IMG/VR virus record: IMGVR_UViG_3300000176_000022
Span: 1 to 37,594 of that record
Length of the DNA: 37,594 bases
DNA from: a virus
Reading direction: 5' to 3' (one strand)
The stretch's first letter is position 1, and every line of letters begins with the position of its first letter. Positions 13,145 to 34,917 of the stretch are shown here, piece after piece. The position numbers and the translations under genes were made by a program. A model generated the notes under the pieces. That model searched no databases. It was not told the DNA's origin and saw only the letters and a program-made list of their open reading frames with translations.

Positions 13145-13167
13145 ATAAACAGCAACGGAGATTTCCC

Positions 13168-13494: not shown

Positions 13495-13503
13495 AAAAAG
13501 TCC

Positions 13504-13531: not shown

Positions 13532-13560
13532 AAATTATAGTCAACTGATGGAGAAACAAA

Positions 13561-14691: not shown

Positions 14692-14693
14692 TT

Positions 14694-14726: not shown

Positions 14727-14729
14727 TTA

Positions 14730-14767
14730 TAGGGGAGCAGTCCGTGAAACTGCTCCCCTATTTTTTT
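14730..14767 (+). terminator. Rho-independent terminator of the MoxR gene
   Basis: An 11-base-pair stem (TAGGGGAGCAG with CTGCTCCCCTA, loop 14741-14749) followed directly by seven Ts at 14761-14767. The next promoter begins four bases later. Confidence 0.93.
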
Positions 14768-14770
14768 CTC

Positions 14771-14798
14771 TTGACAAACATCTATATTGTGCTATTAT
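14771..14798 (+). promoter_or_regulatory. Early-type promoter, repeated cassette copy 9 (VWA gene)
   Basis: TTGACA 14771-14776, 16-base spacer, TATTAT 14793-14798 with extended TG at 14790-14791; leader GTTATAAACATTGGAGA. Confidence 0.8.
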
Positions 14799-14825
14799 AA
14801 GTTATAAACATTGGAGAACATGATT

Positions 14826-19443: not shown

Positions 19444-20319
19444 ATGCATGTACTAGTTACAGGTGGATTTGGTTTTATCGGCCATCATGTTGTAAGGCGG
19501 TTAAAAGATGCTGGACATGCAGTTACTATCATTGATGATATTCGATTTATCAAGCAAGATTTGTATCTTGCTCGCGGTCGTTATATGGACTTTGCATATG
19601 ATGATTGGATCAATGCAGACTGTGCGAGCACTGTAATTCAAGATGTAGATGTCATCGTTCATTTAGCATGCCATCCTAATCAAGCATCGTTCGCAAGGGA
19701 TGGCGTGGCAGCGTGGAAGAACGCTGTACAAAGCACCCTACATATGTTGACTGCTTATCCTAATGCAAAGATGGTTTATATAAGCAGCAGCATGGTATAT
19801 GGCAACTGGATTGGCACGGTTCAGGAAACTGATCCACTGCGCCCAGTCAATGCCTATGGCAAGGCAAAGTTGGCATGTGAACGATTGGTACAAGACATTG
19901 CCAATGATTGGGTAATCATTCGTCCTACCGCTGTATACGGCAAGAGAGATGATGGCAATCGTGTTATCACCAAATGGTTAAAGGCTGCTGCAGAACATGA
20001 ACCTATTCATGTTGATGATCCTATGGCAAAGCTTGATTTTACCCATGTAGAAGACCTATCACAAGCTATTTGCAATGCTGCTGTTACCCCTGTCAATAAA
20101 GTTATTGCCAATGTCAGCTTTGGTGAAGGGCGATCCCTGTTAGAAGCAGCAAATGTTATTAAAGATTGGACTTGGACCAAGAGTGAAATCATATGCGGTC
20201 GTGACTTAGCAGATGACATGCCTCGTCGTGGTGCAATGGATATCCGTAAAGCAGTGCAGTATCTTGGATATACGCCAAAAATTAATTTGGAAAACGGCAT
20301 CCAAAAACTTATTAAATGA
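19444..20319 (+). CDS. NAD-dependent nucleotide-sugar epimerase/dehydratase (SDR)
   Basis: A 291-residue extended short-chain dehydrogenase. NAD-binding VTGGFGFIGHHVV at 5-17, an acidic end to the next strand (IIDDI), SSSMVYG at 114-120 and the catalytic Tyr138-x3-Lys142 in NAYGKAKLACE. The Ser/Thr before the Tyr is in SSS. It belongs to the UDP-glucose 4-epimerase/dTDP-glucose dehydratase group; the exact sugar cannot be read from sequence. Its stop overlaps the start of the aminotransferase by 4 bases, so the two act in sequence: an oxidised or epimerised nucleotide-sugar followed by transamination. Confidence 0.9.
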   Translation: MHVLVTGGFGFIGHHVVRRLKDAGHAVTIIDDIRFIKQDLYLARGRYMDFAYDDWINADCASTVIQDVDVIVHLACHPNQASFARDGVAAWKNAVQSTLHMLTAYPNAKMVYISSSMVYGNWIGTVQETDPLRPVNAYGKAKLACERLVQDIANDWVIIRPTAVYGKRDDGNRVITKWLKAAAEHEPIHVDDPMAKLDFTHVEDLSQAICNAAVTPVNKVIANVSFGEGRSLLEAANVIKDWTWTKSEIICGRDLADDMPRRGAMDIRKAVQYLGYTPKINLENGIQKLIK

Positions 20320-21422
20320 TTAATTATTATAATCTAACAGAGCAATATGAAGATTGCAGACTTGCCATACTTGGCGGGATGGATAATGTTTATCGCAGCG
20401 GTCAATTCTATAGCGGCGAGGCACATGATCTTTTAGAAAAGTATATTAAAACGCATTATAATGACGCAGAAGTAGTACTTACTAATAGCGGCACCAGTGC
20501 GTTACAAGCCGCTCTGATGGCCTTGTACATCAAACCTGGCACTCGTGTGCTGCTTCCAGCACTGACATATGCTGCTACTGCACAAGCTGTAATAGCGGTT
20601 GGCGGTATACCTACATTTGTTGATATTGATAGCAGTTGGCTAGTAGATATTGATTTGCTAGATGATGCGTATAAAAAATATGGCGACCAGATAAGTGCGC
20701 TTGTCACAGTTGACTTGTATGGACAAGGCGTTGAACTGGATAAGGTTCGTCGTTGGTGCAACAAGCATGATGTTAAATGGATTATCGATGCTGCACATAG
20801 TTTTGGGATATGCTCAGATCAATATGACCAAACTATTGCTGATGCAATTTGCCTAAGTTTTAATCCTCTTAAAAATTTTGGTGGAAGTGGTGGCGGTGCG
20901 CTTATCAGCAAATCTATACATTCAACAATTATGCAAGCAGTGTGCACCGTTGGAAAAACAACTACTGGTTCAAACGGAAATATAGAATTACATGGGCTTA
21001 ACTTTCGTATGCTATCCACACAAGCTGCTACTTTAGTTTATAAAATTTATTATTACGCAGAAATGATTCCAAAAAAGATGGCAATATGCCAATTGTATTA
21101 TAACCATTTTAGAAATTATCCAGACAAAGTAGATTTACCTATTCGCAAACCATGGGGAACATGGAATTATTATTCGTTTTCTATTGCGCCGCAACGACAA
21201 GAAAATGTCAAATCAGCGTTAAAAGAAGCCAACATTCAGTATAGCAGTCACTATGCCAAGGCGCTTAACCGTGAAGATTTTGTAAAGTCTTATGGATACC
21301 AACCATGTCCAACTGCTGAAAACATTACTAATAACCAGCGCGTTATAAGTTTGCCAAGTCACTGGCATCTTTCTGATGCTGATGTTAATGTTATTATTAA
21401 AACTGTTATGGATTCACTGTAA
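20316..21422 (+). CDS. DegT/DnrJ/EryC1-type sugar aminotransferase
   Basis: A 368-residue PLP enzyme. SGTSALQAALMAL at 58-70 is the phosphate-binding segment, IIDAAHSFG at 156-164 holds Asp158 (contacts the pyridine nitrogen) and His161, and Lys186 in SFNPLKNFGGSGGG is the Schiff-base lysine. Such enzymes put an amino group on a keto-sugar nucleotide, as in aminosugars of surface polysaccharides. It pairs with the epimerase upstream. It is the last plus-strand gene; its stop overlaps the 3' end of the opposite-strand 584-residue gene by 17 bases, with no terminator between. Confidence 0.92.
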   Translation: MINYYNLTEQYEDCRLAILGGMDNVYRSGQFYSGEAHDLLEKYIKTHYNDAEVVLTNSGTSALQAALMALYIKPGTRVLLPALTYAATAQAVIAVGGIPTFVDIDSSWLVDIDLLDDAYKKYGDQISALVTVDLYGQGVELDKVRRWCNKHDVKWIIDAAHSFGICSDQYDQTIADAICLSFNPLKNFGGSGGGALISKSIHSTIMQAVCTVGKTTTGSNGNIELHGLNFRMLSTQAATLVYKIYYYAEMIPKKMAICQLYYNHFRNYPDKVDLPIRKPWGTWNYYSFSIAPQRQENVKSALKEANIQYSSHYAKALNREDFVKSYGYQPCPTAENITNNQRVISLPSHWHLSDADVNVIIKTVMDSL

Positions 21423-23160
21423 GACGCAAGTAGTGCTCATACAGCCAATCCCATTCGCTTGTCAACATTAATGCTTCTTCGTTATCGCCACATGCAGCAT
21501 AATATTCTTCGGCGTGTCTAACTGCATACTTTTGCCACATAGAATCTTTGCCTTTAGCAATATTACGCCAAGACCACAGTCGATATTCATTCTCAATACT
21601 TGGATTATTTTTACTAAAATGAAGTATTTTAACAACTTCACGAAATGCTGTACGCCAAGTTAACCAAGGATCATCTTCTAAATTAGTTTCGCTTATGGTT
21701 ATTGGCACGGTCGTGTGGCGTTGAGCTAGTGTCATGTCAAGACCGCCTGTGTTCTTATGCAGTAACTTAGAATGATATGCGATAGGTGCCATATGTCCAT
21801 ATATCAAACCTGTATTAAGATTATGATTATGAAAAATATAATGTTTAGGTTCTTGCCAAAAATCTGGTTGCCAATTTAAATCTTTGAAATTTTCTTTCAT
21901 ATTGCATTTAGCAAAAACTGCAATAAACCAAATAGTATCGCTTCTTATAGCAGCAGTTTTATATGCTTTCAATCTGCCGTTAACGCCACTTAATATTTTT
22001 GCTCTTGGGCATAGCGTTTTTAATTTTATCCAGTTTTCTTCTGCACAACTTTCATCGTTGTGAATAAAAATTACATCCACAGGAATATCAAAACCATATT
22101 CTGGATAGCGCAGCAGATGCGGGTATTCATATATTTCTTTTTCAACAATACAATCACGAGGAACAAGGCAGCTACTATTGCTGCGATTTAAACTAACTAC
22201 TGGTCGTTTTTCCCATAAACAAACATCTGGATAATCTATTACTCCAGTAAAAGAATATAATGTGTATATTGATTTGTTTCTAGGCGAGTTATTTAAATCC
22301 CATGCTAGACAATTTTCACTGACATTATACACGGGCCATCTTTTTCTTTTTACAGGATCATGGGTAAAGTTGTAAGAAGGATTCCATTCGCCAAGATAAG
22401 TTGGAACATGAATTAAAAATGTGTCGCCTTTTTCACATGTGCCGCTTGGCCAGCAATGTATTTGATGCTCTTCGCCTTCTTCTGGCAACCAAGTAAAATT
22501 AAATTCATCATAGTCGCATACATCACTGACTACCCATAGCCAAGGTTTAGTTGCTCGTTTTAAAGCTAACTTCAACGCTTCTTCCATCGTTGTGATTAAT
22601 CGAACTTTATAATCATGGTTTGGTAACGGATGGGTGTTAGTATCGATACAACAAATATCATAGTACAGTCCATCATAAGTTAGGTTAGCGGCATGATATT
22701 TTATATTTGTGCTACTTCTGCTAAGCGTAGTATAGCTCAATCGTTCTTTGCCAAGCATGGTAAATTCATGGTTGTATCCCCAATCCCATACGCTTGGAAA
22801 CCAGTTAAAATTAAAAGTAGAATAGTCTATTAGTGGGTCTTTTTTCCACTGCCATAGTTTGCCATTGGGTTGATATAAGATAGGCAATAAACCGCTATGG
22901 AATACTTTTTCAGTATTGTCAAACTCTTGATTGATTGGCACAAGCCATGTAGTCAGACAGTCTGAATTATCATGACTTGCCCATGCATGCATAAAATGCT
23001 GTTGATGTCGATTTGGAAGATAGCGCCAATTAAAAGAAGAATAATCTACTGCACGATGACAGAGCCATACATATTCAGTTCTGCTGTTTTTCTTGGCTTC
23101 TTCAATTAGCTGTTTAATATCGGTACAATCATCATAATCGTACCAATGTTTATCAAACAT
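21406..23160 (-). CDS. Repeat/GT-A-like fusion protein (glycosyltransferase-like)
   Basis: A 584-residue protein. The N-terminal part carries three copies of a repeat with D-Y-x2-F-(N/E)-x2-W-(L/F)-P followed by a His/Trp stretch: DYSSFNWRYLP near 39, DYSTFNFNWFP near 112 and DYDEFNFTWLP near 217. The C-terminal part (about 368-530) aligns with the 312-residue protein encoded at 30762-31700: VDVIFIHNDES with LDCIFLSYKEP, NTGLIYGHMAPIAY with INGLCYGNGGISSW, and WRTAFREVVKI with WQAGFREGVKL. Where that protein has the metal-binding DGDN, this one has FAKCN, so classical metal-dependent transfer is doubtful. Similar proteins occur in cyanophage-like genomes. It ends the operon and overlaps the aminotransferase gene. 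Confidence 0.7.
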   Translation of the reverse strand: MFDKHWYDYDDCTDIKQLIEEAKKNSRTEYVWLCHRAVDYSSFNWRYLPNRHQQHFMHAWASHDNSDCLTTWLVPINQEFDNTEKVFHSGLLPILYQPNGKLWQWKKDPLIDYSTFNFNWFPSVWDWGYNHEFTMLGKERLSYTTLSRSSTNIKYHAANLTYDGLYYDICCIDTNTHPLPNHDYKVRLITTMEEALKLALKRATKPWLWVVSDVCDYDEFNFTWLPEEGEEHQIHCWPSGTCEKGDTFLIHVPTYLGEWNPSYNFTHDPVKRKRWPVYNVSENCLAWDLNNSPRNKSIYTLYSFTGVIDYPDVCLWEKRPVVSLNRSNSSCLVPRDCIVEKEIYEYPHLLRYPEYGFDIPVDVIFIHNDESCAEENWIKLKTLCPRAKILSGVNGRLKAYKTAAIRSDTIWFIAVFAKCNMKENFKDLNWQPDFWQEPKHYIFHNHNLNTGLIYGHMAPIAYHSKLLHKNTGGLDMTLAQRHTTVPITISETNLEDDPWLTWRTAFREVVKILHFSKNNPSIENEYRLWSWRNIAKGKDSMWQKYAVRHAEEYYAACGDNEEALMLTSEWDWLYEHYLRLTVNP

Positions 23161-24274
23161 ATCGTTTATAACCTGGCATTAGATAGTTAATTTGTCGTTG
23201 CTCGGCATCATCGTCCGCCCAACTATAATCATACACTGCCTTAATACCATCTACCTCAATACTATAGATATCTAACATAGAACTCATCATTTCCCATATT
23301 TTAAAAATGTCATGAGTTCCAAAACTACGCTCTAGATCAACATGTCCAAGTTCTAAGTGCCCAAGGCTTAACATAATATCATTTGAATCAAATCCTTGGC
23401 GATCTAACCATATATAATATTCATCAACTTCTTTTGTATGCCAAGAATGTATCCCATAGATAACATCTCTGCCCCATTCTATGTCAAACTCTCCACTATA
23501 GTATTGCAAATGTGTGATGGCATCACAAGTTGCTTTATCTAAATCAGGTGCATCCTCATCATGAAATACCTCAAATAAAGTTTTACCAATTTGTGTCCAA
23601 TGCATATAAACATGTGCAAATCGACGATCATATCCATTTTCAATAAAACCCTTGCGATGTTCTGGTGTTAGATTATATCGCATGGCATTTAAAAAAGTTG
23701 TTATCTGTGATGGGCGAACCCAATCTGGTGCGTACACTTCTTTACGCAAACTTAAACACAGTGTTTCAATCTCATGACACAAATTATTAATTTGTCTAAT
23801 ACTATATTTTACTTCTGGCGTTGCTAACTTATAATATGGACTAAGATTTTCCACAGTTCCCTGTAGGTGCTCAAAATAATTATGAACAACATTCATGACA
23901 GCATGGTTTGGTCCACCGCCTCGTTTGCCATCTTCATCTATACCAGTAAAAGGCAACATAATATCCGCAGCAGTATAATTGGTACGAATATCAAAAGATG
24001 CTAATCCTTGAGATTGCCAAACGCCCAATTCACTAAATGCCCAGATTCTAGTAGTATGTTTAGATAATTCGCTGGCAAGATAATCTAAATTTCTTTGAGT
24101 TTTAGGCCATCCATGCCAACAATAATTTTTTTCAACAGGACTGTTCTTTGTTAACTCTTTTTTCAACGCATCAACCCAATCTCTTGCTAATTGACTTAAA
24201 TTAGGTTTAATATAATAAGATAATTTATCATCCTTGTTTAAAGGATTTCTTAATGTTACAATTACTTCACTCAT
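23153..24274 (-). CDS. Phage protein of unknown function (373 residues)
   Basis: I chose the ATG at 24274: GGAG lies 6 bases ahead and the ATG overlaps the stop of the upstream radical SAM gene (ATGA). An earlier ATG at 24292 would add six residues. The protein is helical and rich in His, Trp and acidic residues: NHAVMNVVHNYFEHLQGT near 122-139, RQINNLCHEIETLCLSL near 158-174, HVYMHWTQIGKTLFEVFHDE near 221-240 and LGHLELGHVDLERSFG near 302-317. These look like metal- or cofactor-lining helices, but I cannot name a family; only one ExxH is present, so a classical di-iron site is not supported. It is locked in the operon between radical SAM genes and the fusion protein. Confidence 0.75.
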   Translation of the reverse strand: MSEVIVTLRNPLNKDDKLSYYIKPNLSQLARDWVDALKKELTKNSPVEKNYCWHGWPKTQRNLDYLASELSKHTTRIWAFSELGVWQSQGLASFDIRTNYTAADIMLPFTGIDEDGKRGGGPNHAVMNVVHNYFEHLQGTVENLSPYYKLATPEVKYSIRQINNLCHEIETLCLSLRKEVYAPDWVRPSQITTFLNAMRYNLTPEHRKGFIENGYDRRFAHVYMHWTQIGKTLFEVFHDEDAPDLDKATCDAITHLQYYSGEFDIEWGRDVIYGIHSWHTKEVDEYYIWLDRQGFDSNDIMLSLGHLELGHVDLERSFGTHDIFKIWEMMSSMLDIYSIEVDGIKAVYDYSWADDDAEQRQINYLMPGYKRYV

Positions 24275-25572
24275 GATATACTCCGCCACCATGCCAACAC
24301 ACTTGGGCTAGCATTTAAAATATCTTCTATTGTTATTTTAGCATCTTTTCGTATAGATTCCAATTTTAAAATATGTTTTTTTCCTTGAATTGCTTCTCGC
24401 TTGTAGGTATCAGGAAACTGCTCTTCAAAAGTAGGTCGAGTTTTGAGATGTTCTAAGGTGTCCCATAAACTTTGTGTACGATGTGTAATGAGTGGCTTAA
24501 TCCGTTCTTGTATATCCATTAATAGCGGTGCTAGCACCGTTCTAGGCAGTGCCAGTGGACTTAAGAGAATATCAGGAGAAAAAGCAAATACTACTTTGCT
24601 CAATAATGAAACATTAAGATCATCAACGAGACCAATAATATTGGCAAGGTCAAATAAACCAGGTAAAGTAAGAGTAAAGTCAACACGCATTTGGCGAGGG
24701 TTTCGCTGATGCTGTATCCCCTGTCGAAAATCAACGAGCCAATCATTATAATTAAGACCAGTTCTAATATACTCACCTATCGCTCCTGTTCCATCTAAAC
24801 TTGCACATATTTCCCAATGTGGAAAATTGTCTAATAATTCCCATAGCGTACTTTTGTTATCTTTACAATAACTAAGATTTGTATTATATCTTACACGAAC
24901 TTGGTCTGCATAGTCAAGTTCTATTATTCGACGCATGAATGTCCAGTGCTCATCATACAGCAGTGGCTCGCCGCCTACCCAATAGATTTCACGCACGGTT
25001 TTGTTTTCAATAGCCGCACGAAACTCTGGTATGACTATATCACGAGTAAAATCACGAATAGCATGGCGGTTCTTTGGCTGCATCCAATGGTTCTTTGGAT
25101 TTGTTAGATCAATCATATCGTTTTTACGAACTTCAACTTCCCATGCCGAACTTAGCATATCGCCACACATACGACACTTGAAGTTGCATACATTGTTATA
25201 ACGATAGTCCCATGATATAGGCTCTAAGGTTGTGTAGCCATTAGCATCCGTATTAGCCACTGCAGCATCTCGTAGATGACCAAAAAGATGTCCAAAGTAA
25301 TCACGATATACAGAAGTGTTAAGTAACTTTTTATCGCAGACCTCACATGCTGATGGAACTTCACCAGCCAACCATTGCTTTCTAATCGTTCTAATATGTT
25401 CGCCATTCCACCAATCCTTTAATGTGAGCGGCGTAAACTGTCCATCACCACCAGCCGTATCAATATACTGTTTGAAGTTCTGCGCAGGTTCTCGTGACGC
25501 ACAGCACAGTCGCCGTTCACCTTGTGGTGAAATATAGGTGTGCGTAAATGGCGCTAAGCAAAAATCATTCAT
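24271..25572 (-). CDS. Radical SAM protein 5 with N-terminal SPASM-like cysteines
   Basis: A 433-residue radical SAM enzyme. The core has CNFKCRMC with Cys129, 133 and 136 (CX3CX2C, binds the 4Fe-4S cluster that splits SAM) and GGEP at 200-203. Ahead of the core are Cys5, Cys23/24, Cys76 and Cys79 in FCLAPFTHTY, LCCASRE and ACEVCDKK: the order C-x17-CC ... C-x2-C of a SPASM/twitch auxiliary cluster, but placed before the core. The C-terminus (LESIRKD...NASPSVLAWW) is a weak version of the end shared by the five. It overlaps the upstream gene by 8 bases. Substrate unknown; family members modify peptides or sugars. Confidence 0.88.
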   Translation of the reverse strand: MNDFCLAPFTHTYISPQGERRLCCASREPAQNFKQYIDTAGGDGQFTPLTLKDWWNGEHIRTIRKQWLAGEVPSACEVCDKKLLNTSVYRDYFGHLFGHLRDAAVANTDANGYTTLEPISWDYRYNNVCNFKCRMCGDMLSSAWEVEVRKNDMIDLTNPKNHWMQPKNRHAIRDFTRDIVIPEFRAAIENKTVREIYWVGGEPLLYDEHWTFMRRIIELDYADQVRVRYNTNLSYCKDNKSTLWELLDNFPHWEICASLDGTGAIGEYIRTGLNYNDWLVDFRQGIQHQRNPRQMRVDFTLTLPGLFDLANIIGLVDDLNVSLLSKVVFAFSPDILLSPLALPRTVLAPLLMDIQERIKPLITHRTQSLWDTLEHLKTRPTFEEQFPDTYKREAIQGKKHILKLESIRKDAKITIEDILNASPSVLAWWRSIS

Positions 25573-26728
25573 ATCCTATTGCCGCCGCTATTTCTGGATG
25601 ATAATCACTAAATTTTTGTTTGCGTTGAGCATCGCTATTTTTTAATGTTTGAACAAGTTTAGTACAATCACTGCCTTCGCCTTGATTCATAAAAAGTAAT
25701 AGATTAGTAACTTCACTTGAATATGGACCGACATATGCTTTAAATTTACTATTAATAAGTTCTTTTGCAGTATCATTTAATCTGCTAATACTAAAATGCC
25801 AAGCATCATGCAGAACATTAAAATATACATAGTCAAATTTTTGTTGGGCAATCCATTCACACATTTCATCAATATAATAAAAGTTCTGCACATTAGAAGT
25901 CATGCATAATTGTAATTTAATATTTTTATTGTCATCACGAAGATCATACAAGCGTTGAAGATTATCCATTGCCTTGTCCCAATTTGCGCCATATCGTTGA
26001 TATTCAAATCGAGGACCAATATCATCTACACTAACTGCTATCTCAACCATCTTAAAATGAGGCCAAATTTCTAATCCACGCTTTGGAAATGTGGTAAGAT
26101 TAGTATTATAATGAATTTCAATATCCTTGGCATACCCCATTTCAACTGCAATTTCTAAAAGAGTAAAATGCTCGTCAATTAAAAAAGGTTCTCCGCCAGT
26201 AAATTCAAAGTATCGCGAAGTTGCAAGTAATTGTGTTAAATCTTCCCAAAATCTTTTTGCTTCGCGAGGCCAACGACCTTTTTCAAGATTATCTTTAGCA
26301 GTTTGATTGCCATTGTAGATATCAATTTCTTCTTGTGCCCATTTTGAACTACTAAAGCTACCGCATATACGGCACTTAAGATTGCAAATGTTTCCAAGTT
26401 TTAAATCAAGAAAGATAAGACTTCCGTCTGTATTCTGCGTAAACTCTGAATTACCTAATAGTTGCCGCAACCTAGCATGACTATGCATTCTTTTACTAGT
26501 TCTGCCGCTTGCTTCTTCTGCCCAACAACGATTGCAGTTTGCAGGTTTTTCGTTATTTAAAAAACTTTGACGAAGATTATTCATATAAGAACTATTAAAG
26601 GCTTCGGTCAAAGTATTTGTTTTAAGATCAATATCTGGTATTGTTTCATAACTTAAACAGCATACTTTGCATTTACCCATCGGGTCTGCTTCAATAGAAA
26701 CAAATGGCAACACACAGAAATTATCCAT
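25565..26728 (-). CDS. Radical SAM protein 4 with N-terminal SPASM-like cysteines
   Basis: A 387-residue radical SAM enzyme. Core CNLKCRIC with Cys115, 119 and 122, and GGEP at 178-181. N-terminal cysteines: Cys5 (FCVLPF), Cys20, Cys23/24 (KVCCLS), Cys65 and Cys68 (NCNRCW). The section LTEAFNSSYMNNLRQSFLNN between them matches the helix that precedes the last cysteine pair of SPASM domains. Near the end QRKQKFSDYHPEIAAAI is the motif shared by the five. It overlaps neighbours on both sides by 8 bases. The same subfamily as proteins 3 and 5 by its paired CC. Confidence 0.88.
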   Translation of the reverse strand: MDNFCVLPFVSIEADPMGKCKVCCLSYETIPDIDLKTNTLTEAFNSSYMNNLRQSFLNNEKPANCNRCWAEEASGRTSKRMHSHARLRQLLGNSEFTQNTDGSLIFLDLKLGNICNLKCRICGSFSSSKWAQEEIDIYNGNQTAKDNLEKGRWPREAKRFWEDLTQLLATSRYFEFTGGEPFLIDEHFTLLEIAVEMGYAKDIEIHYNTNLTTFPKRGLEIWPHFKMVEIAVSVDDIGPRFEYQRYGANWDKAMDNLQRLYDLRDDNKNIKLQLCMTSNVQNFYYIDEMCEWIAQQKFDYVYFNVLHDAWHFSISRLNDTAKELINSKFKAYVGPYSSEVTNLLLFMNQGEGSDCTKLVQTLKNSDAQRKQKFSDYHPEIAAAIGYE

Positions 26729-28022
26729 TTAAATACCTTAATTCTGGCACAATGTCTAACAATTTTTCTCCACGGATAGTATCTAATTTATTTGTTCTAT
26801 CCCAAAATTTCGGTATAAGATGTGATTTATCATCTGCCATCATAAAGTTAACTGCACTTTCAAAGCCAGTCACGGCTCTTTTTAAATTATCAAGTGGTTT
26901 AAGCCATTCAATATGTTCTAAGTACATTTCTTGGATGTCTACTTTGCATTGAAATGGCAATATATCAATCCTAAAAAAAGGTGCGTCTTGCAAAATATTA
27001 ACATTTAAATCTTGTGGTTTTATGAAACCTTTCTGTACCCAGTCACGATGAAAACTTGGTAGTTGCCAAACATTCATTACACTCAGGGTAGGACTAATAT
27101 AAAAATCAACCTGTGGACATATTCGCAACATTTCTTCACGATTGCGCTCAGTTTGTGCCCAATCAGTGCCTTTACGCATTAATTCTGCCAGCGGACCCAT
27201 TGCATCAAGGCTGGCACCTACACAAACATTAGAAAATTCATTCCACAACTCTAAAACATTTTGTTTTTTGTAGCGAAGTTCACTGAAATTAGTATTGTAA
27301 ATAAGTCTAACCTTATTCATTCCTTTTTTTAATAATGCATTGAGAATTTTATAATGTTCTTCCATTATAAGTGGTTCTCCGCCAGCAAAATAAATGTGTT
27401 CAACATAATCTAAATGTGGCTCTAATTGTTCCCATATATCTAATTGAGTTCTTCCAGCGTATTCTATTCTTTTACTATTTTTTTTAAAATAATCAACACT
27501 TTTTTCAGTCTCTAGCAATTTAACTTGGTCATCATACCAATTGCTACTAAAAATATGACCACAGCTACGGCATCGAAAATTACATAAATTTGAAAAACGA
27601 ATATCCCAGTACGATAAAGTTAAATCTTCAAGATGTCCATCTTCTAGTGTTTTATCAACGCGCTTAATATTATGACCAAATCTTTTGTTACTACTATTGC
27701 GCATGCTGAAAAAACCAGCATCTTCTTGCTCATAACACCTCACGCACGAACCACATTTAGTTTCAGTGACCATGTTAGTTCTAGTTTTTTTCATGGAATC
27801 GTTATTCCAAACTTCTTTTATTGTAGATTCGCGCAAATTACCAACTGGATAATTCATTTCAGAATTGCAACACACATATGCTTGCCCCGTAGGAAATGCA
27901 TGAAGATGTGTCCAAGGCAACATACAAAAAGTTTTACTTTCCATAAGTAAAAATTTTTGTCTTTCGGTTAATTTATTTAAGCTAATAAATTCTGGTGTTC
28001 GGTCATTGTAATCATAAGTCAT
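26721..28022 (-). CDS. Radical SAM protein 3 with N-terminal SPASM-like cysteines
   Basis: A 433-residue radical SAM enzyme. It shows the permuted SPASM module most clearly: FCMLPWTHLHAFPTGQAYVC (Cys33 to Cys51/52), then PVGNLRESTIKEVWNN at 59-74, and KCGSCVRC with Cys90, 93 and 96. Standard SPASM domains have the same elements in this order but behind the radical SAM core. Core: CNFRCRSC with Cys147, 151 and 154; GGEP at 214-217. C-terminal motif LDTIRGEKLLDIVPELRYL. A 30-residue N-terminal extension is specific to this copy. It overlaps both neighbours by 8-11 bases. Confidence 0.9.
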   Translation of the reverse strand: MTYDYNDRTPEFISLNKLTERQKFLLMESKTFCMLPWTHLHAFPTGQAYVCCNSEMNYPVGNLRESTIKEVWNNDSMKKTRTNMVTETKCGSCVRCYEQEDAGFFSMRNSSNKRFGHNIKRVDKTLEDGHLEDLTLSYWDIRFSNLCNFRCRSCGHIFSSNWYDDQVKLLETEKSVDYFKKNSKRIEYAGRTQLDIWEQLEPHLDYVEHIYFAGGEPLIMEEHYKILNALLKKGMNKVRLIYNTNFSELRYKKQNVLELWNEFSNVCVGASLDAMGPLAELMRKGTDWAQTERNREEMLRICPQVDFYISPTLSVMNVWQLPSFHRDWVQKGFIKPQDLNVNILQDAPFFRIDILPFQCKVDIQEMYLEHIEWLKPLDNLKRAVTGFESAVNFMMADDKSHLIPKFWDRTNKLDTIRGEKLLDIVPELRYLNG

Positions 28023-29367
28023 TGTACCATTCTTTCAATTCTGGGAATGTATTAATAAAATCTTTATTGCGCCTCTGGTCGTATTGTTGATAAAATTGTT
28101 TAAAATCTTTCTGCAATACATCCATGGAACTAGCACCAGCATGCGGCGCTTCAGTACTATTTAAGTATTCTACAAGGCGCTTAATATGTTCTATCTCCAT
28201 TTGATGCAACCAATGGTTATCGCCAAGGTTATCTAAAAATTTTTGCAACCTCGTTGCACAACCTTGTTTAATTTCTGCTGGCATAACTAATGGACTCTGG
28301 AAACTTGGAAACCGCAAGATATTAAGAGTAACTGTTAAACTATCACGACCATATGCTTGTTTAAAATCTAACATATGCGCAAGGAAATCAGGAAGTTTGG
28401 TTAAACATAGCCCATTAATAGTTGCCATTACATGCAGTTGCTTTACTGCACCGCTGCTATATAGTTTGACCATATTGTCAAACCACTGATAATAATTTAA
28501 ACCATCACGAATATATTCAGCTTGGGCAGTCATGCTTTCACAACTGGTATAAACTTCAATATCCATACCGCGAACAGCATCTATAAATTCATCTAGCTTC
28601 TTAGGTTCTAATCCAAGATTACTATTGATAGCAATCTTAGTATTACTTTTGCCGCGATTGTTCTTAAACCATTCTAACAGTTTCCAAGTATGTCCGCTCA
28701 TAAGCGGTTCACCGCCCGTAATACGCAACTCACGAAGAGTCTTATGTAGATCACTTTCCCACCATTTAAAGAATGCTTCTACATATGGATTAGTATCGGT
28801 ATATCCATAAAGCTGACTGCCATCATGAGGATGCGTAAAATGATTACGCCCATCGCTGTGAAGCCCGATATAACTGCCATTCGTCTTAATATCTCGGACC
28901 CAGGTCGTGCTAAATGCAGGATTACAATAAGAGCAGGCAAAATTGCAAGTGCGGTCAAAAGCTATCTCCAATGTTCTTAAATTTACATCACTTTCACTTG
29001 GGAGGTTAAATGCTTCATTTAACTCTTCCTCGCTGAATATCATACTTTTATAAGGGCGATCACTGATGGCAGTTGTGCTAGTATCTTCTATGCGCCAGCA
29101 ATATTCACAACCACTTGGTCGTTCACCCTTTTGCATCTGTAGACGCTGTGCTTTCTTTTCTGGTGTATTATGCAGCGCAGCAGGATTATTCATTACCTGT
29201 TCTACGCTTACTTTATGTGGCAGCGGGTGATGACAGCTTGTAGTCTGTCCACTACCTAACCAAATGGTTGCATTGTACCACTTAGCGCCACAAAAAGATG
29301 CACTTTTGCTATCTAACACACGCTGTTTATATTCTTGAAATGTTTCGTCTGGTTTCTTACTTCGCAT
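28012..29367 (-). CDS. Radical SAM protein 2 with N-terminal cysteine module
   Basis: A 451-residue radical SAM enzyme. Core CNFACSYC with Cys141, 145 and 148; GGEP at 218-221. The N-terminal module differs from proteins 3-5: FCGAKWYNATIWLGSGQTTS then CHHPLPH (Cys26 and Cys45, a single Cys instead of CC) and CEYCW (Cys87, Cys90), with PAALHNTPEKKAQRLQMQKG between them. The same pattern is found in protein 1, so these two form a second subfamily. The C-terminus YDQRRNKDFINTFPELKEWY is the shared motif in full. The start at 29367 overlaps the upstream gene by 11 bases; Shine-Dalgarno is weak, so translation is probably coupled. Confidence 0.88.
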   Translation of the reverse strand: MRSKKPDETFQEYKQRVLDSKSASFCGAKWYNATIWLGSGQTTSCHHPLPHKVSVEQVMNNPAALHNTPEKKAQRLQMQKGERPSGCEYCWRIEDTSTTAISDRPYKSMIFSEEELNEAFNLPSESDVNLRTLEIAFDRTCNFACSYCNPAFSTTWVRDIKTNGSYIGLHSDGRNHFTHPHDGSQLYGYTDTNPYVEAFFKWWESDLHKTLRELRITGGEPLMSGHTWKLLEWFKNNRGKSNTKIAINSNLGLEPKKLDEFIDAVRGMDIEVYTSCESMTAQAEYIRDGLNYYQWFDNMVKLYSSGAVKQLHVMATINGLCLTKLPDFLAHMLDFKQAYGRDSLTVTLNILRFPSFQSPLVMPAEIKQGCATRLQKFLDNLGDNHWLHQMEIEHIKRLVEYLNSTEAPHAGASSMDVLQKDFKQFYQQYDQRRNKDFINTFPELKEWYNDL

Positions 29368-30787
29368 TATCTGCCCAATACTTACAGTTGTTATACCAAT
29401 CGCTCATTTCTGGAAATGTTTCAAGAAAATTTGTCTTACGACGAGCATCATGTTCATTAAAGAAACGATAGAAATCTGCTTGAACAACAGTATCATTCTT
29501 TTGATTATCGCGCTTCCAATCTACAACTCGTTGTAATTTGGCAATCTCATAATCTTTGAAGCCATTAAATCTAGTATCCAGAGTTTCAATCTGTGGACGC
29601 ATCCATTCTACAATTTTTTCTAATTTCCAAGTATAACTTTGTGGCAACTGATCTATGCATTGCCAAGCTGGTTCGCGCAAAATAGGAGTATCAAACCAAA
29701 CACGCTGATAAGTTTTGCTGTGTTTAGCACGAAGTTCAAGAATCCATTCTAGCAAATCTTGCAAGCTAGTAACATTAAGAGAGTTCATTGTAATAATAAA
29801 TGTTACGCTATTGCGATAAGGTACATCGGTCAAAAATTTCTCTACATTACTTTTCATTAAAGAAAAATCTAATCCATGACGAGCATATTCGGCGCGTTCT
29901 CCAAATCCATCAATAGAAACAAATTGCATGAAATGTTCTAACACCCCGTTGCCACACATATGCTTGACATAAGTTAGATATTTGTCAAACACATATTCAT
30001 CTTGGCTAAAGTTACTAGTTACATTAAGATGTAAATCTTTCTTTGGATGGGCTAAGACATAATCAAATACGCGATAGGTATTGCGATCCATAAGCGGCTC
30101 GCCACCTGTCATGCGGAAATGTTTTAGGTTAGGGTAGAGTTCTGGCCACCATCGCCAAAACGCATCAACATAAGGATTATCTTCCCTATTCGGTATAGGT
30201 TTACGATCACCCCGAAAGTAAGCAGGACTATTATGACTATTAGAAGTAGGATAAGCACCGTATTCATTAATTTCTTTCATCCAACTACTGCTGAATTGTG
30301 GACTACAATATGAACATTTTAAATTACAAGCACTGTTAAAATTTACTTCTACATAAGCAGGATTTGTATTCCATGTTAAAGGGTCTTGAACCAGAATCTC
30401 GCTAAACTTCTCAGCAGCCCAAGGTTCCCCTGATCTGTAATGTCGGTCGGATAGGTTTCCCGTGGCTTCAACTCGCCAGCAATATGAACATTCTTCTGGC
30501 TTCTCTCCACTAAGCATTCTTGCTCTCTGGGTCTTTTTATGAGCGGTGTTATGGAGCGCACTGGGGTTATTTTGTAACTCATTGGCATCAATCCTATGCA
30601 ACGGTGGGTGATAGCAACTATTAGTATGACCAGTTGTTAGATGCAAACTGGTCTGCTGCCACTTTGCCAGGCAAAGTGCAGGTCCAAGTTTTGTTTGCAT
30701 TTGTTCAGCACTAGACATGAAGTCGCTGTGCAGAACGCCGCTCTCATCAGCAGTAGCCTTATCACCTGAATTGTCTAGCTGTTTCAT
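29357..30787 (-). CDS. Radical SAM protein 1 with N-terminal cysteine module
   Basis: A 476-residue radical SAM enzyme. The frame is open to 30868, but ATG 30787 has AGGA six bases ahead and overlaps the preceding gene by 26 bases, so I start there. N-terminal cysteines: Cys39 (LCLAKWQQT), Cys58 (TNSCYHPPLH), Cys100 and Cys103 (ECSYCW), with PSALHNTAHKKTQRARMLSG between, nearly the same as protein 2. Core CNLKCSYC with Cys154, 158 and 161; GGEP at 228-231. C-terminal HDARRKTNFLETFPEMSDWY. It is the first radical SAM gene translated in the operon. Substrate unknown. Confidence 0.88.
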   Translation of the reverse strand: MKQLDNSGDKATADESGVLHSDFMSSAEQMQTKLGPALCLAKWQQTSLHLTTGHTNSCYHPPLHRIDANELQNNPSALHNTAHKKTQRARMLSGEKPEECSYCWRVEATGNLSDRHYRSGEPWAAEKFSEILVQDPLTWNTNPAYVEVNFNSACNLKCSYCSPQFSSSWMKEINEYGAYPTSNSHNSPAYFRGDRKPIPNREDNPYVDAFWRWWPELYPNLKHFRMTGGEPLMDRNTYRVFDYVLAHPKKDLHLNVTSNFSQDEYVFDKYLTYVKHMCGNGVLEHFMQFVSIDGFGERAEYARHGLDFSLMKSNVEKFLTDVPYRNSVTFIITMNSLNVTSLQDLLEWILELRAKHSKTYQRVWFDTPILREPAWQCIDQLPQSYTWKLEKIVEWMRPQIETLDTRFNGFKDYEIAKLQRVVDWKRDNQKNDTVVQADFYRFFNEHDARRKTNFLETFPEMSDWYNNCKYWADNAK

Positions 30788-31700
30788 GTAATGTCCTAAT
30801 AAAATCTCGCTCTGGAAGCATAATATCAATGTTATAATATGGGCGTTGATGTTTTTTATACCAAGCACTGTGCTCTGGTGAAAGTGTAACGATGTCTAAA
30901 TCTAATCTTTTACGCAAAACATTTCCGTAATGGTCAATATTTTTAAATTGATCATCTGCGGTATCGTCCCATAATTTTTCTAATTTTGTGAAGTCACGAA
31001 CTTCACGATAATCCCAACTATCATCAAACATTGTCATATATGCGCCTTGTCTTGCTCCAAGGATTGCCCATTTTCCAAATTCAACATCTGTGCCAACGCT
31101 GCACCAAATAACCAAATTTTCTCGGTTGCCTTTCCATGCAGCAGTTTCAAATTCTTCAGCAGATGGACGACGACCGCGATCAAGACATAGTTTTACGCCT
31201 TCGCGAAACCCTGCTTGCCATGCTTGTTGTGGACTATAATTTGGAACAGTTGTGCTCCATACATCATGCATTGCCCAATAATCTTTATCATAGCAAAATT
31301 CTACAACGGTTTCATCGCCGCCATCTGTAGCTTCGTGTGTTCGCATATTGGCAACAAAGTCTTTAGTCCAACTGCTGATACCGCCATTGCCATAGCAAAG
31401 ACCGTTTATAGCGTTCTTTGCTCGCCAACGAAATACACAGTGTTCACTGTCTGGCGCAAGGCGTAATCGTTGATTAAAAAATTCAGGATCAGGTTGATTA
31501 TCTCCATCAATTAATATGAATCTATCAGTTTCGCTAGCTAATCCAGCAGCCTTGTGTGCTGCATCACTGCCTTCTATGCCATGGACGCGCTTTGCCCATG
31601 GCGCAATGCTTCGCACAAATGCCCAATTAGCATCCGCATTTGGTTCTTTGTAACTTAAAAATATACAATCTAATTCTGCAATGTCAATAATATTAGTCAT
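30762..31700 (-). CDS. GT-A fold glycosyltransferase-like protein
   Basis: A 312-residue protein with a Rossmann-like start (LDCIFLSYKEPNADANWAFV, about 9-29), a nucleotide-loop-like APWAKRVHGIEGSDAAHKAA and the likely metal-binding DGDN at about 70-73 in RFILIDGDNQPDPEFF. This matches GT-A enzymes that use a DxD motif with a divalent metal and a nucleotide-sugar. Later motifs NAINGLCYGNGGISSW and QAWQAGFREGVKL are shared with the C-terminal part of the 584-residue protein. It lies directly upstream of the first radical SAM gene and overlaps it by 26 bases. Sugar and acceptor unknown. The aminosugar made by the epimerase and aminotransferase is a candidate donor. Confidence 0.72.
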   Translation of the reverse strand: MTNIIDIAELDCIFLSYKEPNADANWAFVRSIAPWAKRVHGIEGSDAAHKAAGLASETDRFILIDGDNQPDPEFFNQRLRLAPDSEHCVFRWRAKNAINGLCYGNGGISSWTKDFVANMRTHEATDGGDETVVEFCYDKDYWAMHDVWSTTVPNYSPQQAWQAGFREGVKLCLDRGRRPSAEEFETAAWKGNRENLVIWCSVGTDVEFGKWAILGARQGAYMTMFDDSWDYREVRDFTKLEKLWDDTADDQFKNIDHYGNVLRKRLDLDIVTLSPEHSAWYKKHQRPYYNIDIMLPERDFIRTLHETARQFR

Positions 31701-32052
31701 AATCCCATCCTATTGCTGCTGGATAATCTGCGTCCACAGCAAATTGATAATCGTTACTAAGTGTATAAAACATAGTTCCGCCTTTTATTAACTTTCTTCT
31801 AGTTGGAAGAGTGACAACTTCTCTTATGATAGTGCCATCTTTTTTAACAAGCCAATCCATAGGCGGTATACCTATATTTTCAGCGGGAAAATCTACCCAC
31901 TGACCTTCCAATTCATCCGCAGATATTATTTCACCGCGCATAGTTTCTGCATTATAATATAAACGATATTTTATTTCAGAAATAGGCGGAACTGAGTTTG
32001 CTAAACCTGCGTCTACTTCATCCCAAAAGCTGTTTTTTGAAGCCATACTCAT
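31693..32052 (-). CDS. Small protein of unknown function inside the glycosyltransferase/radical SAM operon
   Basis: A 119-residue acidic protein; ATGs at 32052 and 32046 are both possible, neither with a good Shine-Dalgarno. Middle: LYYNAETMRGEIISADELEG, then GIPPMDWLVKKDGTIIREVV and a basic TRRKLIKGG. The end is aromatic and acidic (FAVDADYPAAIGWDYD). I recognise no family. Because a radical SAM enzyme needs a substrate and this is the one small orphan inside the block, it is worth testing as a modified peptide or a carrier, but it lacks the Cys-, Gly- or Asn-rich core of known RiPP precursors. Confidence 0.65.
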   Translation of the reverse strand: MSMASKNSFWDEVDAGLANSVPPISEIKYRLYYNAETMRGEIISADELEGQWVDFPAENIGIPPMDWLVKKDGTIIREVVTLPTRRKLIKGGTMFYTLSNDYQFAVDADYPAAIGWDYD

Positions 32053-32860
32053 ATCTATCTATTAATTCATCGGTTACAAATGTTTTAAGATGATAATGTA
32101 GCGGTTTTGTTTGACGATGAAATCCTAACACTACCCCAAAATCATCATGAACTTCTGTATATATTTCTTTAGTCCAATCGGTTATTCGGATTCCTTGCAA
32201 TTGCGGTTTCATGTGAACAAAGCCAAAATTTATATTGTCAAGTGGCATGTTTATAGCACGAGCAGCTATTGCATATACTTCGTCTGTTCTGGGAGTTTCA
32301 TACCTGCAGTTTATTAGATATTCATCTCTATACCAATTCCAATCATCCATTATCATACGCATTGTATCATAAAATTTTTTAGATTGCAAATCATAACTAA
32401 AATATGTCCATGCGCTATAGATATTTGGCAGTAAACTATCGTCAAAAAGTTTTCGTTGACTGCGATTAGTGACTATATCATGATTATATGTATAAACTGT
32501 CTGCGTAAAATTCATTACATATTGAGAATATACATTCCATAACCAACTTACATCACAGGTAAACAACATATCCGCTTCTGTTTTTATAGTTTCTTTATAT
32601 GGACTACATGAAAATACTTGGGATTCGTTTTGCTGCTTTACTTTACTAGTTTCAGCTAAATCTTTTTTAAGAATAATAACTTTATCAAATATTTTTCTGT
32701 GATTATCTGTAACTTGCTCAGCGGTTTCTTTATCTACGATAATACTAAAATTTCTCACATGCGATTGTGTTAATTTACAGCTTAATGCTTGAAGATATGC
32801 CATACGAAGATAATCAACGGCAGTGCTATTCTGTGCGATACAAAGATAACCTTTGCTCAT
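32018..32860 (-). CDS. Glycosyltransferase-like protein
   Basis: A 280-residue protein. The beginning CIAQNSTAVDYLRMAYLQAL and FSIIVDKETAEQVTDNHRKI fits the nucleotide-binding half of a GT-A fold. KTEADMLFTCDVSWLW at about 92-107 could give the acidic metal motif (EAD). The rest is aromatic with HMKPQLQGIRITDWTKEIYT near the C-terminus. Similar proteins appear with glycosyltransferases in T4-like phages of aquatic bacteria, by memory. It overlaps the 119-residue gene by 35 bases and the upstream gene by 4 (ATGA). Confidence 0.6.
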   Translation of the reverse strand: MSKGYLCIAQNSTAVDYLRMAYLQALSCKLTQSHVRNFSIIVDKETAEQVTDNHRKIFDKVIILKKDLAETSKVKQQNESQVFSCSPYKETIKTEADMLFTCDVSWLWNVYSQYVMNFTQTVYTYNHDIVTNRSQRKLFDDSLLPNIYSAWTYFSYDLQSKKFYDTMRMIMDDWNWYRDEYLINCRYETPRTDEVYAIAARAINMPLDNINFGFVHMKPQLQGIRITDWTKEIYTEVHDDFGVVLGFHRQTKPLHYHLKTFVTDELIDRYEYGFKKQLLG

Positions 32861-33621
32861 AGCTGATCCTTATTCATTAAATGTAAATCAACATTAGATA
32901 AACGGTTTGCCCACTGTCTACCTTCATAATAATAAACTAACTTATTATCTTTCCAACTAATATATTCTGACCTGCCGTCGCAATTAATCAATGGATAATT
33001 TTTTAATCCATAGTCTCGTAACCCATATCCACCTGCCAAGTGACATGCGATACTAAAAATATAATCATTTCTAATAGGTTTTGTATGAAAGCCATATAAT
33101 GCCGCATAATATGCATAATGTTTTTGAATACTTTTTGCCATTTCAAATATAGTCATAGCTTCACTAGATTTATTAAAAATCATTACAGTGGCCCAATACA
33201 TAGGTATAGGACTACTATGTATCTTTTCAATTTTTGTTTTGCCTCGTGGTGCTATATCATATATTTCTTTTGCCATTAAAAAATCACGAGAAGATTTAAT
33301 ATGTGGCAATAATGAATTTGTTGAAATATAAAAATCACTATCAATTACGAGAGTACGATCATATAGCGTTAGGTCATATAACTGCGTTCTTACAAGGTTG
33401 TACCAATCTCGTGGAGGATTGTTTATAAAACCTCGTTTATTATTGATTGGTCGTTCAACAATTATTTTATTGTAATCTAAAGTAGCATCATCTGTTATAA
33501 TTGTAACAGGAATGCCTATGTATTTTTTAACACGATTAGCGGCTTCGATTGCCTGTTGCGTATAGTTGACTTCTGCTGTGTCAAACGCAACAATCAGACA
33601 ACCTTCAGAGTTGTTTGGCAT
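32857..33621 (-). CDS. GT-A fold glycosyltransferase-like protein with DSD motif
   Basis: A 254-residue protein; the frame is open from a TTG at 33657, but I take the ATG at 33621. It begins with GCLIVAFDTAEVNYTQQAIE, then IPVTIITDD and, at about 92-100, RTLVIDSDFYIS, the typical DxD strand of GT-A enzymes such as those in glycogenin-like and GT8-like families. PMYWATVMIFNKS and NDYIFSIACHLAGG follow as acceptor-side segments. It starts within the end of the 113-residue gene. Probably transfers a sugar from a nucleotide donor with a metal; donor and acceptor are unknown. Confidence 0.72.
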   Translation of the reverse strand: MPNNSEGCLIVAFDTAEVNYTQQAIEAANRVKKYIGIPVTIITDDATLDYNKIIVERPINNKRGFINNPPRDWYNLVRTQLYDLTLYDRTLVIDSDFYISTNSLLPHIKSSRDFLMAKEIYDIAPRGKTKIEKIHSSPIPMYWATVMIFNKSSEAMTIFEMAKSIQKHYAYYAALYGFHTKPIRNDYIFSIACHLAGGYGLRDYGLKNYPLINCDGRSEYISWKDNKLVYYYEGRQWANRLSNVDLHLMNKDQL

Positions 33622-33946
33622 TGCGAATCTTTGTAAACTCTTCGTATTCTGCGGCAACTTCGTTCATCACTTCAAACCAACGCTGCTGACAAATATATAA
33701 CAGTTCGTGTGGAATAACTTTGACTGGAACATCATAAGCGTCCATCATATAAATTGCACCATCATATAGATGCCAATTTGGACCAGTCCATGCATGTAAG
33801 AAAGCAATAAGTTCTTGGGTCACGATAAACATACCGTCACCATAGTTCACGGTCATTCGTGATTCAATAGCAGTATTGATGTTTTGTTTTGCCAGTTCAC
33901 GGTCATACGCTACTCTGGCTGCATCACGCAATTCTTCTGTATTCAT
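33605..33946 (-). CDS. Conserved phage protein of unknown function, first gene of the minus-strand operon
   Basis: A 113-residue protein: a helical start (ELRDAARVAYDRELAKQNIN), a conserved middle (VNYGDGMFIVTQELIAFLHA), then DVPVKVIPHELLYICQQRWF and a helical end. I know this pattern (VNY-GG-F-V-T-L-F-L and D-Y-P-V-K-V) from T4-like phages near tail fibre genes; no function is established to my knowledge. A strong promoter lies right in front, leaving six bases before the ATG. It separates the tail genes from the glycosyltransferase/radical SAM block and could belong functionally to the tail. Confidence 0.75.
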   Translation of the reverse strand: MNTEELRDAARVAYDRELAKQNINTAIESRMTVNYGDGMFIVTQELIAFLHAWTGPNWHLYDGAIYMMDAYDVPVKVIPHELLYICQQRWFEVMNEVAAEYEEFTKIRNAKQL

Positions 33947-33952
33947 AAAATG

Positions 33953-33981
33953 ATTTTATCGCAGCAGTTAATAAATGTCAA
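33953..33981 (-). promoter_or_regulatory. Strong promoter of the 12.5 kb minus-strand operon, apparently leaderless
   Basis: On the minus strand TTGACA (33981-33976), a 17-base spacer and TAAAAT (33958-33953). Only six bases separate the -10 element from the ATG at 33946, so transcription should begin at or next to the start codon. Confidence 0.72.
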
Positions 33982-33984
33982 TTA

Positions 33985-34917
33985 TTAATATGTGCCTTGA
34001 GTATTAACATTGGCGACACAAGTATATGTTCCCCAAGAGTTTGCTATTTTTCCAGCATTATGTGTTGTATCCCATGGCGGAACAACAACCATATTACAAG
34101 TAAGTGTCCCAGTAACTTGGTCATTTACCACATCCGCAGCAGCATCTCTAAGCGTGACATTGGCAATAAGAGATGCACCAAATCCACCGTTAGTTGAAGT
34201 TCCGCCGCCAGCAAAATCAACTTGAATAAAGTTGTTTGTATAATCTGCTGAACTTGGACTATCAAGCATTTTGAAAAGAGTTGTAAATGAGTTGTTGGAA
34301 AGATTATAATAACCGCTACCAGTTAAGTTTGTAGTTGGAGTAAAACCAGTTCCATTATAACTTGAAGAAGTTGCTCCAAGAGTATATGTTCCAAAACCAC
34401 TTGTCAAGAAAGTATTCCAATAAGTGCTTTTTGTATTTCCGCTAAGTGATGTTCCAGTAAAATTAAGCTGTATATAACCACCAGCGTTAAAGAAATAACG
34501 AAGTTGATCAGCACTTGGAAAGGTAAGATTAAAAGTTCTAGTAGCGTGACCATCCCAAGATGTTGCCAATGATGCTGCAGTAGTTAAGCTTGTGCCCGCC
34601 GCTGCGGTAGTTAATTTATTAGTGATAAGTGAACTGATTTCAGTATCTACTGCACTTAAATATGTAATAATACTACCCGCAGATGGAGATGCTGGAATAC
34701 CAGTAGTATTATTAAACTGATGTTGCTGCATAGTAGACATTGTGCTAATAAGTGTTGTCCATTGAGTAGCAGTTACAATGCTACTGGCGCTGGCGCTGCC
34801 GAGTGCAGTTTGACCATATCCGTTTGAACCGCTACCTGTGCTCCAAAGATTATTAATACCAGTAATACGACTATTATAGTCAGCTAACTGTATTAACCCG
34901 CCACTTAAATACGACAT
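33985..34917 (-). CDS. Phage virion/tail protein (Ser/Thr/Gly-rich)
   Basis: A 310-residue protein. N-terminal DYNSRITGINNLWSTGSGSN and TATQWTTLISTMSTMQQHQF are typical of a family of structural proteins in T4-like phages, where ADYN-x-I...GYGQT and the TQW-x-L motif recur. The rest is Ser/Thr/Gly/Asn-rich beta sequence (NLTFPSADQLRYFFNAGGYI, then FIQVDFAGGGTSTNGGFGAS) without enzyme motifs. It should be part of the tail or a fibre. It follows the 132-residue gene after 22 bases, with a possible late promoter motif (TTAAATAAATAC) just upstream. Confidence 0.72.
   Translation of the reverse strand: MSYLSGGLIQLADYNSRITGINNLWSTGSGSNGYGQTALGSASASSIVTATQWTTLISTMSTMQQHQFNNTTGIPASPSAGSIITYLSAVDTEISSLITNKLTTAAAGTSLTTAASLATSWDGHATRTFNLTFPSADQLRYFFNAGGYIQLNFTGTSLSGNTKSTYWNTFLTSGFGTYTLGATSSSYNGTGFTPTTNLTGSGYYNLSNNSFTTLFKMLDSPSSADYTNNFIQVDFAGGGTSTNGGFGASLIANVTLRDAAADVVNDQVTGTLTCNMVVVPPWDTTHNAGKIANSWGTYTCVANVNTQGTY

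Follow-up and report, generated by a model that had tools for sequence, protein, structure and literature searches.

The window analysed here is the whole of a 37.6-kb IMG/VR virus fragment (IMGVR_UViG_3300000176_000022, positions 1 to 37,594), and it carries a block in which glycosyltransferase (GT)-like genes and five radical S-adenosylmethionine (SAM) genes follow tail genes and face two amino-sugar genes. We give a probability of about 55% to the reading that this block is one transcription unit for a pathway of glycan assembly and tailoring. The gene content, the gene order, a promoter, intact catalytic motifs and the linkage to amino-sugar genes were observed and are described below. On the minus strand, read from right to left, the genes are tail3, tail2, tail1, u113, GTc, GTb, u119, GTa, rS5, rS4, rS3, rS2, rS1, u379 and repGT. 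A preliminary description of this DNA had named an epimerase and a DegT aminotransferase facing an operon with three glycosyltransferase-like proteins, a repeat/GT fusion and five radical-SAM enzymes. The facing pair proved to be real (PF01370, 6e-34; PF01041, 2e-59), all five radical-SAM proteins lie above the NF033640 cutoff, and the three GT-like proteins were recovered through a glycogenin profile (GTb and GTc) and a GT-A-type model fold (GTa). To the operon as listed there, u379 with its cyclophilin-like fold and the small conserved u113 and u119 are added. The block and the facing genes are the following.

33953..33981, minus strand: sigma70-type promoter TTGACA-N17-TAAAAT in the tail1/u113 gap, matching the consensus at 11 of 12 positions
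33605..33946, minus strand: u113, first gene of the operon, small protein conserved in relatives (ratio of non-synonymous to synonymous substitution rates, dN/dS, about 0.2)
32857..33621, minus strand: GTc, glycogenin-like (GT8, GT-A class) with a DSD motif (glycogenin profile match, motif conservation); the list of open reading frames (ORFs) gives the start as 33657 (TTG), the conserved ATG is 33621
32018..32860, minus strand: GTb, second glycogenin-like protein, EAD motif (same family as GTc)
31693..32052, minus strand: u119, small fast-evolving protein conserved in relatives
30762..31700, minus strand: GTa, GT-A-fold glycosyltransferase-like protein with an invariant DxDN (AlphaFold model, fold comparison, motif)
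29357..30787, minus strand: rS5, N-twitch radical-SAM protein (NF033640, E 3e-98; all Cys ligands present); the ORF extends upstream to 30868 (GTG), the conserved ATG being 30787
28012..29367, minus strand: rS4, N-twitch radical-SAM protein (NF033640, E 7e-90)
26721..28022, minus strand: rS3, N-twitch radical-SAM protein (NF033640, E 2e-115)
25565..26728, minus strand: rS2, N-twitch radical-SAM protein (NF033640, E 5e-100)
24271..25572, minus strand: rS1, N-twitch radical-SAM protein with the hallmark CCASREP motif (NF033640, E 6e-80)
23153..24292, minus strand: u379, cyclophilin-like fold with a long helical insertion (AlphaFold model, fold comparison)
21406..23160, minus strand: repGT, repeats and a C-terminal GTa-like domain that lacks the acidic motif (homology to GTa)
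20316..21422, plus strand: DegT-type sugar aminotransferase, catalytic Lys context SFNPLKNFGG (PF01041, 2e-59)
19444..20319, plus strand: NAD-dependent sugar epimerase, extended SDR, SSSMVYG...YGKAK (PF01370, 6e-34)

Operon order and promoter

Hundreds of uncultured freshwater and marine phages are predicted to carry this operon behind their tail genes. The rS3 scan yielded 32 virus loci. With a GTa profile and a divergent rS3 profile, at least 595 and at least 597 matches were obtained, respectively, and the best 80 of each were used. Relatives were annotated with home-made profiles, and some contigs occur in more than one scan. Because the counts rest on the best-scoring loci, they describe the clade around the window and not the matches as a whole. 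The order tail2-tail1-u113-GTc-GTb-u119-GTa-rS5-rS4-rS3-rS2-rS1-u379 is shared by roughly 100 IMG/VR loci, and since it recurs in loci down to about 45% identity, the arrangement is not due to chance. GTb and GTc are present in all 80 GTa-anchored loci and tail1 lies upstream of GTa in 79; the co-occurrence that the preliminary description had put forward as a check is seen in all 60 of these loci with at least 6 kb downstream, which carry radical-SAM genes (4.9 on average). Genes within the block overlap (median gaps of -8 to -26 nt), except at the tail1/u113 junction (+52). Conserved order, overlapping ORFs and a promoter of its own therefore support the earlier view of the block as one unit, with the amino-sugar genes at a conserved convergent position. 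A family of about 350 aa that has no Pfam match (F10) is a frequent operon member between rS5 and rS4 (L187, L185 and others). The tail-GT-radical-SAM block also occurs in contigs filed under bacterial metagenome-assembled genomes of Betaproteobacteria, Verrucomicrobia, Pelagibacter, Rickettsiales and Rhodobacteraceae (L039, L041, L042, L043 and L093), which look like mis-binned phage contigs. Searches of cultured phages with GTa, GTb, tail1 and u379 gave no match, so no cultured host can be deduced; the only relatives indicated by polymerase B are jumbo T4-like phages, and these are distant.

The window promoter occupies the tail1/u113 gap (33947-33984), and its -10 element ends 6 nt before the u113 ATG. 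Promoters with at least 10 of 12 consensus positions were found in 54% of the distinct tail1/u113 gaps of relatives, compared with 1.7% of random segments taken from these loci. When 60-nt upstream regions of relatives were used, values of 52% and 1.1% were obtained, and the remaining genes of the block showed a sigma70-type promoter in at most 5%. The -10 element ends 5-7 nt before the start codon in 56 of the 66 loci with a promoter score of at least 9, and because of this proximity a leaderless u113 message is predicted. Upstream of the promoter, a terminator-like hairpin with a T stretch is present in 36 of 87 cases. The tail genes of relatives rarely have a sigma70-type promoter and are enriched upstream in TAAATAC, which resembles T4-like late promoters. 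Thus, the operon can be expressed separately from the tail proteins, and perhaps earlier. At least six genes of the replication/ATPase region (8115-14811, plus strand) have TTGACA-N16/17-TATATT-like promoters within 60 nt upstream, the same class as that of u113. The T4 late motif TATAAATA occurs 0 times in the whole window, where about 5 occurrences are expected, possibly reflecting avoidance.

Enzymes of the operon and their relatives

All five radical-SAM proteins exceed the curated membership threshold of NF033640 (N_Twi_rSAM, 170 bits) with 269-386 bits (E 6e-80 to 2e-115). In their alignment GGEP and the core cysteines C129, C133 and C136 (rS1 numbering) are kept, and the N-terminal auxiliary-cluster cysteines C5, C23, C76 and C79 are invariant; the CxxxCxxC core motif is present in 853 of 854 viral relatives. 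PF13186 matches the N-terminus of rS1-rS3 (slightly below cutoff for rS2), and the twitch domain resembles that of BtrN, with a match to the C-terminal part of the latter. In a tree of 139 sequences the five groups are monophyletic or nearly so, with few strays and some weak supports. The five proteins represent five orthologous groups with intact ligands for core and auxiliary Fe-S clusters. A literature search on the N_Twi_rSAM family found no paper, and we know of no substrate for this family; the radical-SAM family is large.

Compared with three relatives of the window phage, the radical-SAM genes have thymidylate-synthase-like dN/dS values of 0.06-0.19, and tail1, tail2, u119, GTb and partly GTc and DegT evolve faster, all values being rough as synonymous sites are close to saturation. 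Slow evolution beside exchangeable DegT genes suggests that the radical-SAM set edits a constant core and not a variable sugar. The earlier proposal that the block makes an unusual sugar is conjectural, since the radical-SAM genes are constant and the DegT and tail genes variable. The same slow evolution may leave room for a protein as the radical-SAM substrate.

Bacterial members of the family occur in Bacteroidota, Elusimicrobia, Bdellovibrionota and others. Their immediate neighbours, in a small sample from partly related genomes (n=110), include GT2 (5), GDSL (6), other radical-SAM (10) and carbamoyltransferase (2) genes, none of which is among the leading families in the distant-neighbour control. 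Several Bdellovibrionota arrays lie near DegT or carbamoyltransferase genes. The Bdellovibrionota genomes (L046, L292-L304) have 7-18 N_Twi_rSAM matches each, and some arrays alternate between strands. The phage GTb/GTc profile had no match in nine Bdellovibrionota genomes, a weak negative obtained without a positive control.

GTb and GTc belong to one family, which is probably related to glycogenin through a weak but clear profile match (4ueg, E 6e-5, positions 5-100 only). Most relatives of these two proteins have a DxD-type motif; a Pfam search with the window proteins gave no GT8 match. For GTa, Pfam and PDB sequence searches gave nothing useful. Its AlphaFold model (predicted local distance difference test, pLDDT, 92.3) has a GT-A-type domain at residues 4-155, over which B4GALNT1, the PBCV-1 capsid GT and SunS/ThuS are fold neighbours (Z 8-9), and the DxDN motif is kept in 166 of 167 relatives. 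The repeat/GT fusion of the preliminary description, repGT, is indeed homologous to GTa through its C-terminal domain (3e-12), but the acidic DGDN motif reads VFAK in the window, so this GT domain is probably inactive. A Pfam search with repGT gave nothing useful. Its length ranges from about 440 to 1345 aa among complete-looking relatives, and the protein appears to consist of degenerate GT-A-like repeats in tandem. Searching Pfam and PDB with the u379 sequence likewise gave nothing useful; its model (pLDDT 90.3, residues 4-349) matches cyclophilins with Z 8-9 over about 140 residues, Foldseek alone gave no significant match (low probability), and the predicted cyclophilin-like arrangement is a resemblance of fold only. 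No protein with a clear membrane helix was found in the whole block.

Of ten contigs of 220-347 kb, nine contain DegT, and in eight of the ten it is placed beyond the far end of the block in convergent orientation; in L030 epimerase and DegT are inside the operon on the same strand. The window DegT scores below the cutoff of every specific equivalog profile. The window epimerase reads SSSMVYG in place of TDEVYG, which we take to be the 4,6-dehydratase motif, and is presumably not of the dehydratase type. A 4-keto sugar would therefore need another source. A carbamoyltransferase (F13) is found in or beside the operon in 48 of 79 radical-SAM-anchored loci, and proteins with SGNH motifs (F17) lie in or beside the operon of relatives. 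Relatives also encode an ADI/amidinotransferase-like protein and, adjoining DegT, a MocA-type oxidoreductase. Homologues of GtrA (PF04138) and Wzx were found in none of the ten contigs of 220-347 kb, which may be incomplete. The preliminary description had further drawn an SGNH acyl hydrolase at 17.8 kb and an isomerase-like cupin at 6.9 kb into the pathway. The former matches the operon SGNH family weakly but is common only to the same phage (three loci), which leaves its membership uncertain, and the cupin (GMP_PMI-type) has no positional link to the block.

The flanking features of the window are listed below.

33985..34917, minus strand: tail1, probably structural, upstream of the operon (conserved position; fast evolving)
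34940..35338, minus strand: tail2, homologue of the C-terminal region of tail-fibre-like proteins (sequence, relatives)
35349..37592, minus strand: tail3, fibre-like protein, repetitive and rich in S/T/G, incomplete at the window end (PHROG 22593, 4e-9)
17837..18571, plus strand: SGNH-like protein with GCSFT ... HPTP motifs (sequence; pathway membership uncertain)

The plus strand encodes, in order, DNA polymerase B, an exonuclease, a MoxR-like ATPase, DHFR and thymidylate synthase, followed by the epimerase and DegT. The MoxR-like AAA ATPase and a VWA-like/metallopeptidase-like protein after it span 13561-16091 (PHROG 1297 and 1314). The first ORF (53-769, minus strand) has a GIY-YIG-like start, PYYIGKG, and may encode a homing endonuclease.

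Proposed pathway and alternatives

For the glycan pathway the enzyme activities, the order of steps, the substrate and the acceptor are predicted. The convergent epimerase and DegT would supply an amino-sugar nucleotide, and GTc, GTb and GTa would assemble a short glycan, attached to a protein or carrier, whose conserved core the radical-SAM enzymes would then edit stepwise by epimerisation, deoxygenation, oxidation or rearrangement. Optionally, carbamoyl, acyl or amidino groups might finish the glycan. The likeliest acceptor, at somewhat less than even odds, is a tail or receptor-binding protein, since the operon always follows tail genes, the block has no membrane protein and the large relatives have no GtrA or Wzx. 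A bolder and rather doubtful extension is that these phages, a large and mostly uncultured aquatic group, carry a conserved natural-product-like assembly line: a glycan or glycoprotein made by their own transferases would undergo several radical-SAM reactions in succession and end as a chemically novel decoration of receptor-binding tail proteins.

Several observations weigh against this pathway. Its substrate and product are putative. Glycosyltransferase activity of GTa is not proven, as the GT-A fold is also found in nucleotidyltransferases. The radical-SAM genes do not covary with an exchanged DegT (L009), and a sigma70-type promoter of the operon's own, as found before replication genes, does not point to late co-expression with tail proteins. 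The argument from tail adjacency in the preliminary description is weakened by this promoter. Finally, the Bacteriovoracaceae chromosome L046 carries the array rS4-rS1-rS2-rS3-rS2-rS5-rS4 with no neighbouring sugar gene; orthologues of all five thus occur without adjacent sugar genes, and the radical-SAM set can stand apart from GTs. The array is flanked by genes that we take, by eye from the sequence, to be obgE-rpmA and lgt. Radical-SAM blocks without sugar genes in related phages had been regarded beforehand as counter-evidence, and the viral loci were examined for them. GTa, GTb or GTc lies within the flank of 60 of the 79 radical-SAM-anchored loci, most of the remainder start at rS5 or later and are cut off before the GT side, and others hold different sugar genes (a GT7-type galactosyltransferase, a UDP-sugar dehydrogenase). 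At one locus, L210, two radical-SAM genes are accompanied by no recognised sugar gene.

Potentially, the same enzymes act early in infection on the surface polysaccharide of the host (O-antigen or capsule), so that the receptor is altered or superinfection prevented. We regard this as unlikely, at roughly one chance in four. The sigma70-type promoter suggests expression before the late phase, the sugar genes are exchangeable, bacterial homologues lie near GT2, DegT and GDSL genes, and pelagimyophage islands with GT8 and radical-SAM cassettes offer a proposed precedent (PMC7029224). However, the absence of GtrA and Wzx from the ten large contigs, the lack of a membrane protein in the block and the constant linkage to tail genes speak against it, and carrier and export machinery of the host would be needed, which is possible. 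The radical-SAM enzymes might instead modify residues of tail proteins by epimerisation or cross-links, in the manner of ribosomally synthesised and post-translationally modified peptides, with the GTs glycosylating the same proteins. Many SPASM/twitch enzymes act on peptides. The cyclophilin-like fold of u379, the adjoining tail genes and the constancy of the radical-SAM genes beside variable sugar genes would fit such a role, as would the peptide GTs SunS/ThuS among the structural neighbours of GTa, although many other GT-A matches reach the same Z as SunS. Neither a precursor-peptide motif nor a recognition domain came to light, without a systematic search for them, and bacterial relatives are often found together with DegT, carbamoyltransferase and GT genes; this explanation is improbable, although less so than hypermodification of the phage DNA, with the GTs and radical-SAM enzymes acting on modified bases. 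Both enzyme classes occur in DNA hypermodification, the promoter is of an early type and a thymidylate synthase lies nearby in the window phage. However, this enzyme keeps the thymidylate-synthase Asn context PFNIASY, and the operon is linked to tail genes and not to replication genes. Seven of the ten large contigs, which may be incomplete, have no PF00303 protein at all, and thus no hydroxymethylase of that family. After this check of thymidylate synthase paralogues DNA hypermodification was set aside as very improbable.

Comparison with known systems

Phage glyco-islands are usually described as optional and variable. The radical-SAM genes described here are conserved like thymidylate synthase while the adjoining tail genes change fast; therefore, the pathway must matter in many abundant phages. 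It would help to assign a function to a large radical-SAM family whose members also occur in Bdellovibrionota, Bacteroidota and Elusimicrobia, and new reactions on sugars or proteins might come to light.

Aminoglycoside-type tailoring uses DegT, StrB-type amidinotransferases, TobZ-type carbamoyltransferases and the twitch radical-SAM enzyme BtrN. By analogy, the same tailoring classes appear to be present in and around the operon; however, no aminocyclitol pathway genes were seen, and the five radical-SAM proteins of the operon have their twitch at the N-terminus. A further point of comparison is N_Twi_rSAM itself, with all five window proteins above its curated cutoff. In the sequenced Vibrio phages K566 and K567 two GT8 genes and one GT4-like gene, the latter a weak match, lie among several N_Twi_rSAM genes, in another gene order, in another phage lineage and with only 22-25% identity. 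These phages appear to have combined N_Twi_rSAM with GT genes independently, as a remote parallel cluster, and scanning viral sequences with their radical-SAM protein as query gave nothing. Literature searches, with subscription papers mostly outside their scope, found no self-transcribed conserved operon with five orthologous N-twitch radical-SAM enzymes, and a search for radical-SAM enzymes alongside phage tail genes turned up no account of the window operon. Moraphages, uncultured jumbo phages of aquatic origin in which several glycosyltransferase orthogroups belong to the core and whose predicted hosts are Bacteroidota, resemble the window phage by description, but no radical-SAM gene is mentioned there (PMC12619734). 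In the host recognition cluster of pelagimyophages, uncultured T4-like phages of aquatic habitats, tail-fibre genes adjoin GT8 genes and radical-SAM cassettes, and modification of the host surface was proposed for these islands (Zaragoza-Solas et al. 2020, PMC7029224). Tail-fibre, GT8 and radical-SAM genes thus occur together in aquatic phages there as well. Compared by description, the pelagimyophage island is hypervariable and non-syntenic, with occasional radical-SAM genes and a position between VrlC and gp14 (PMC7029224), whereas the window operon is ordered and syntenic, with five radical-SAM orthologues over many loci and its own promoter. Phage islands with tail fibres, GT8 and radical-SAM genes have already been described, and the conserved operon is a variant of the phage glyco-island.

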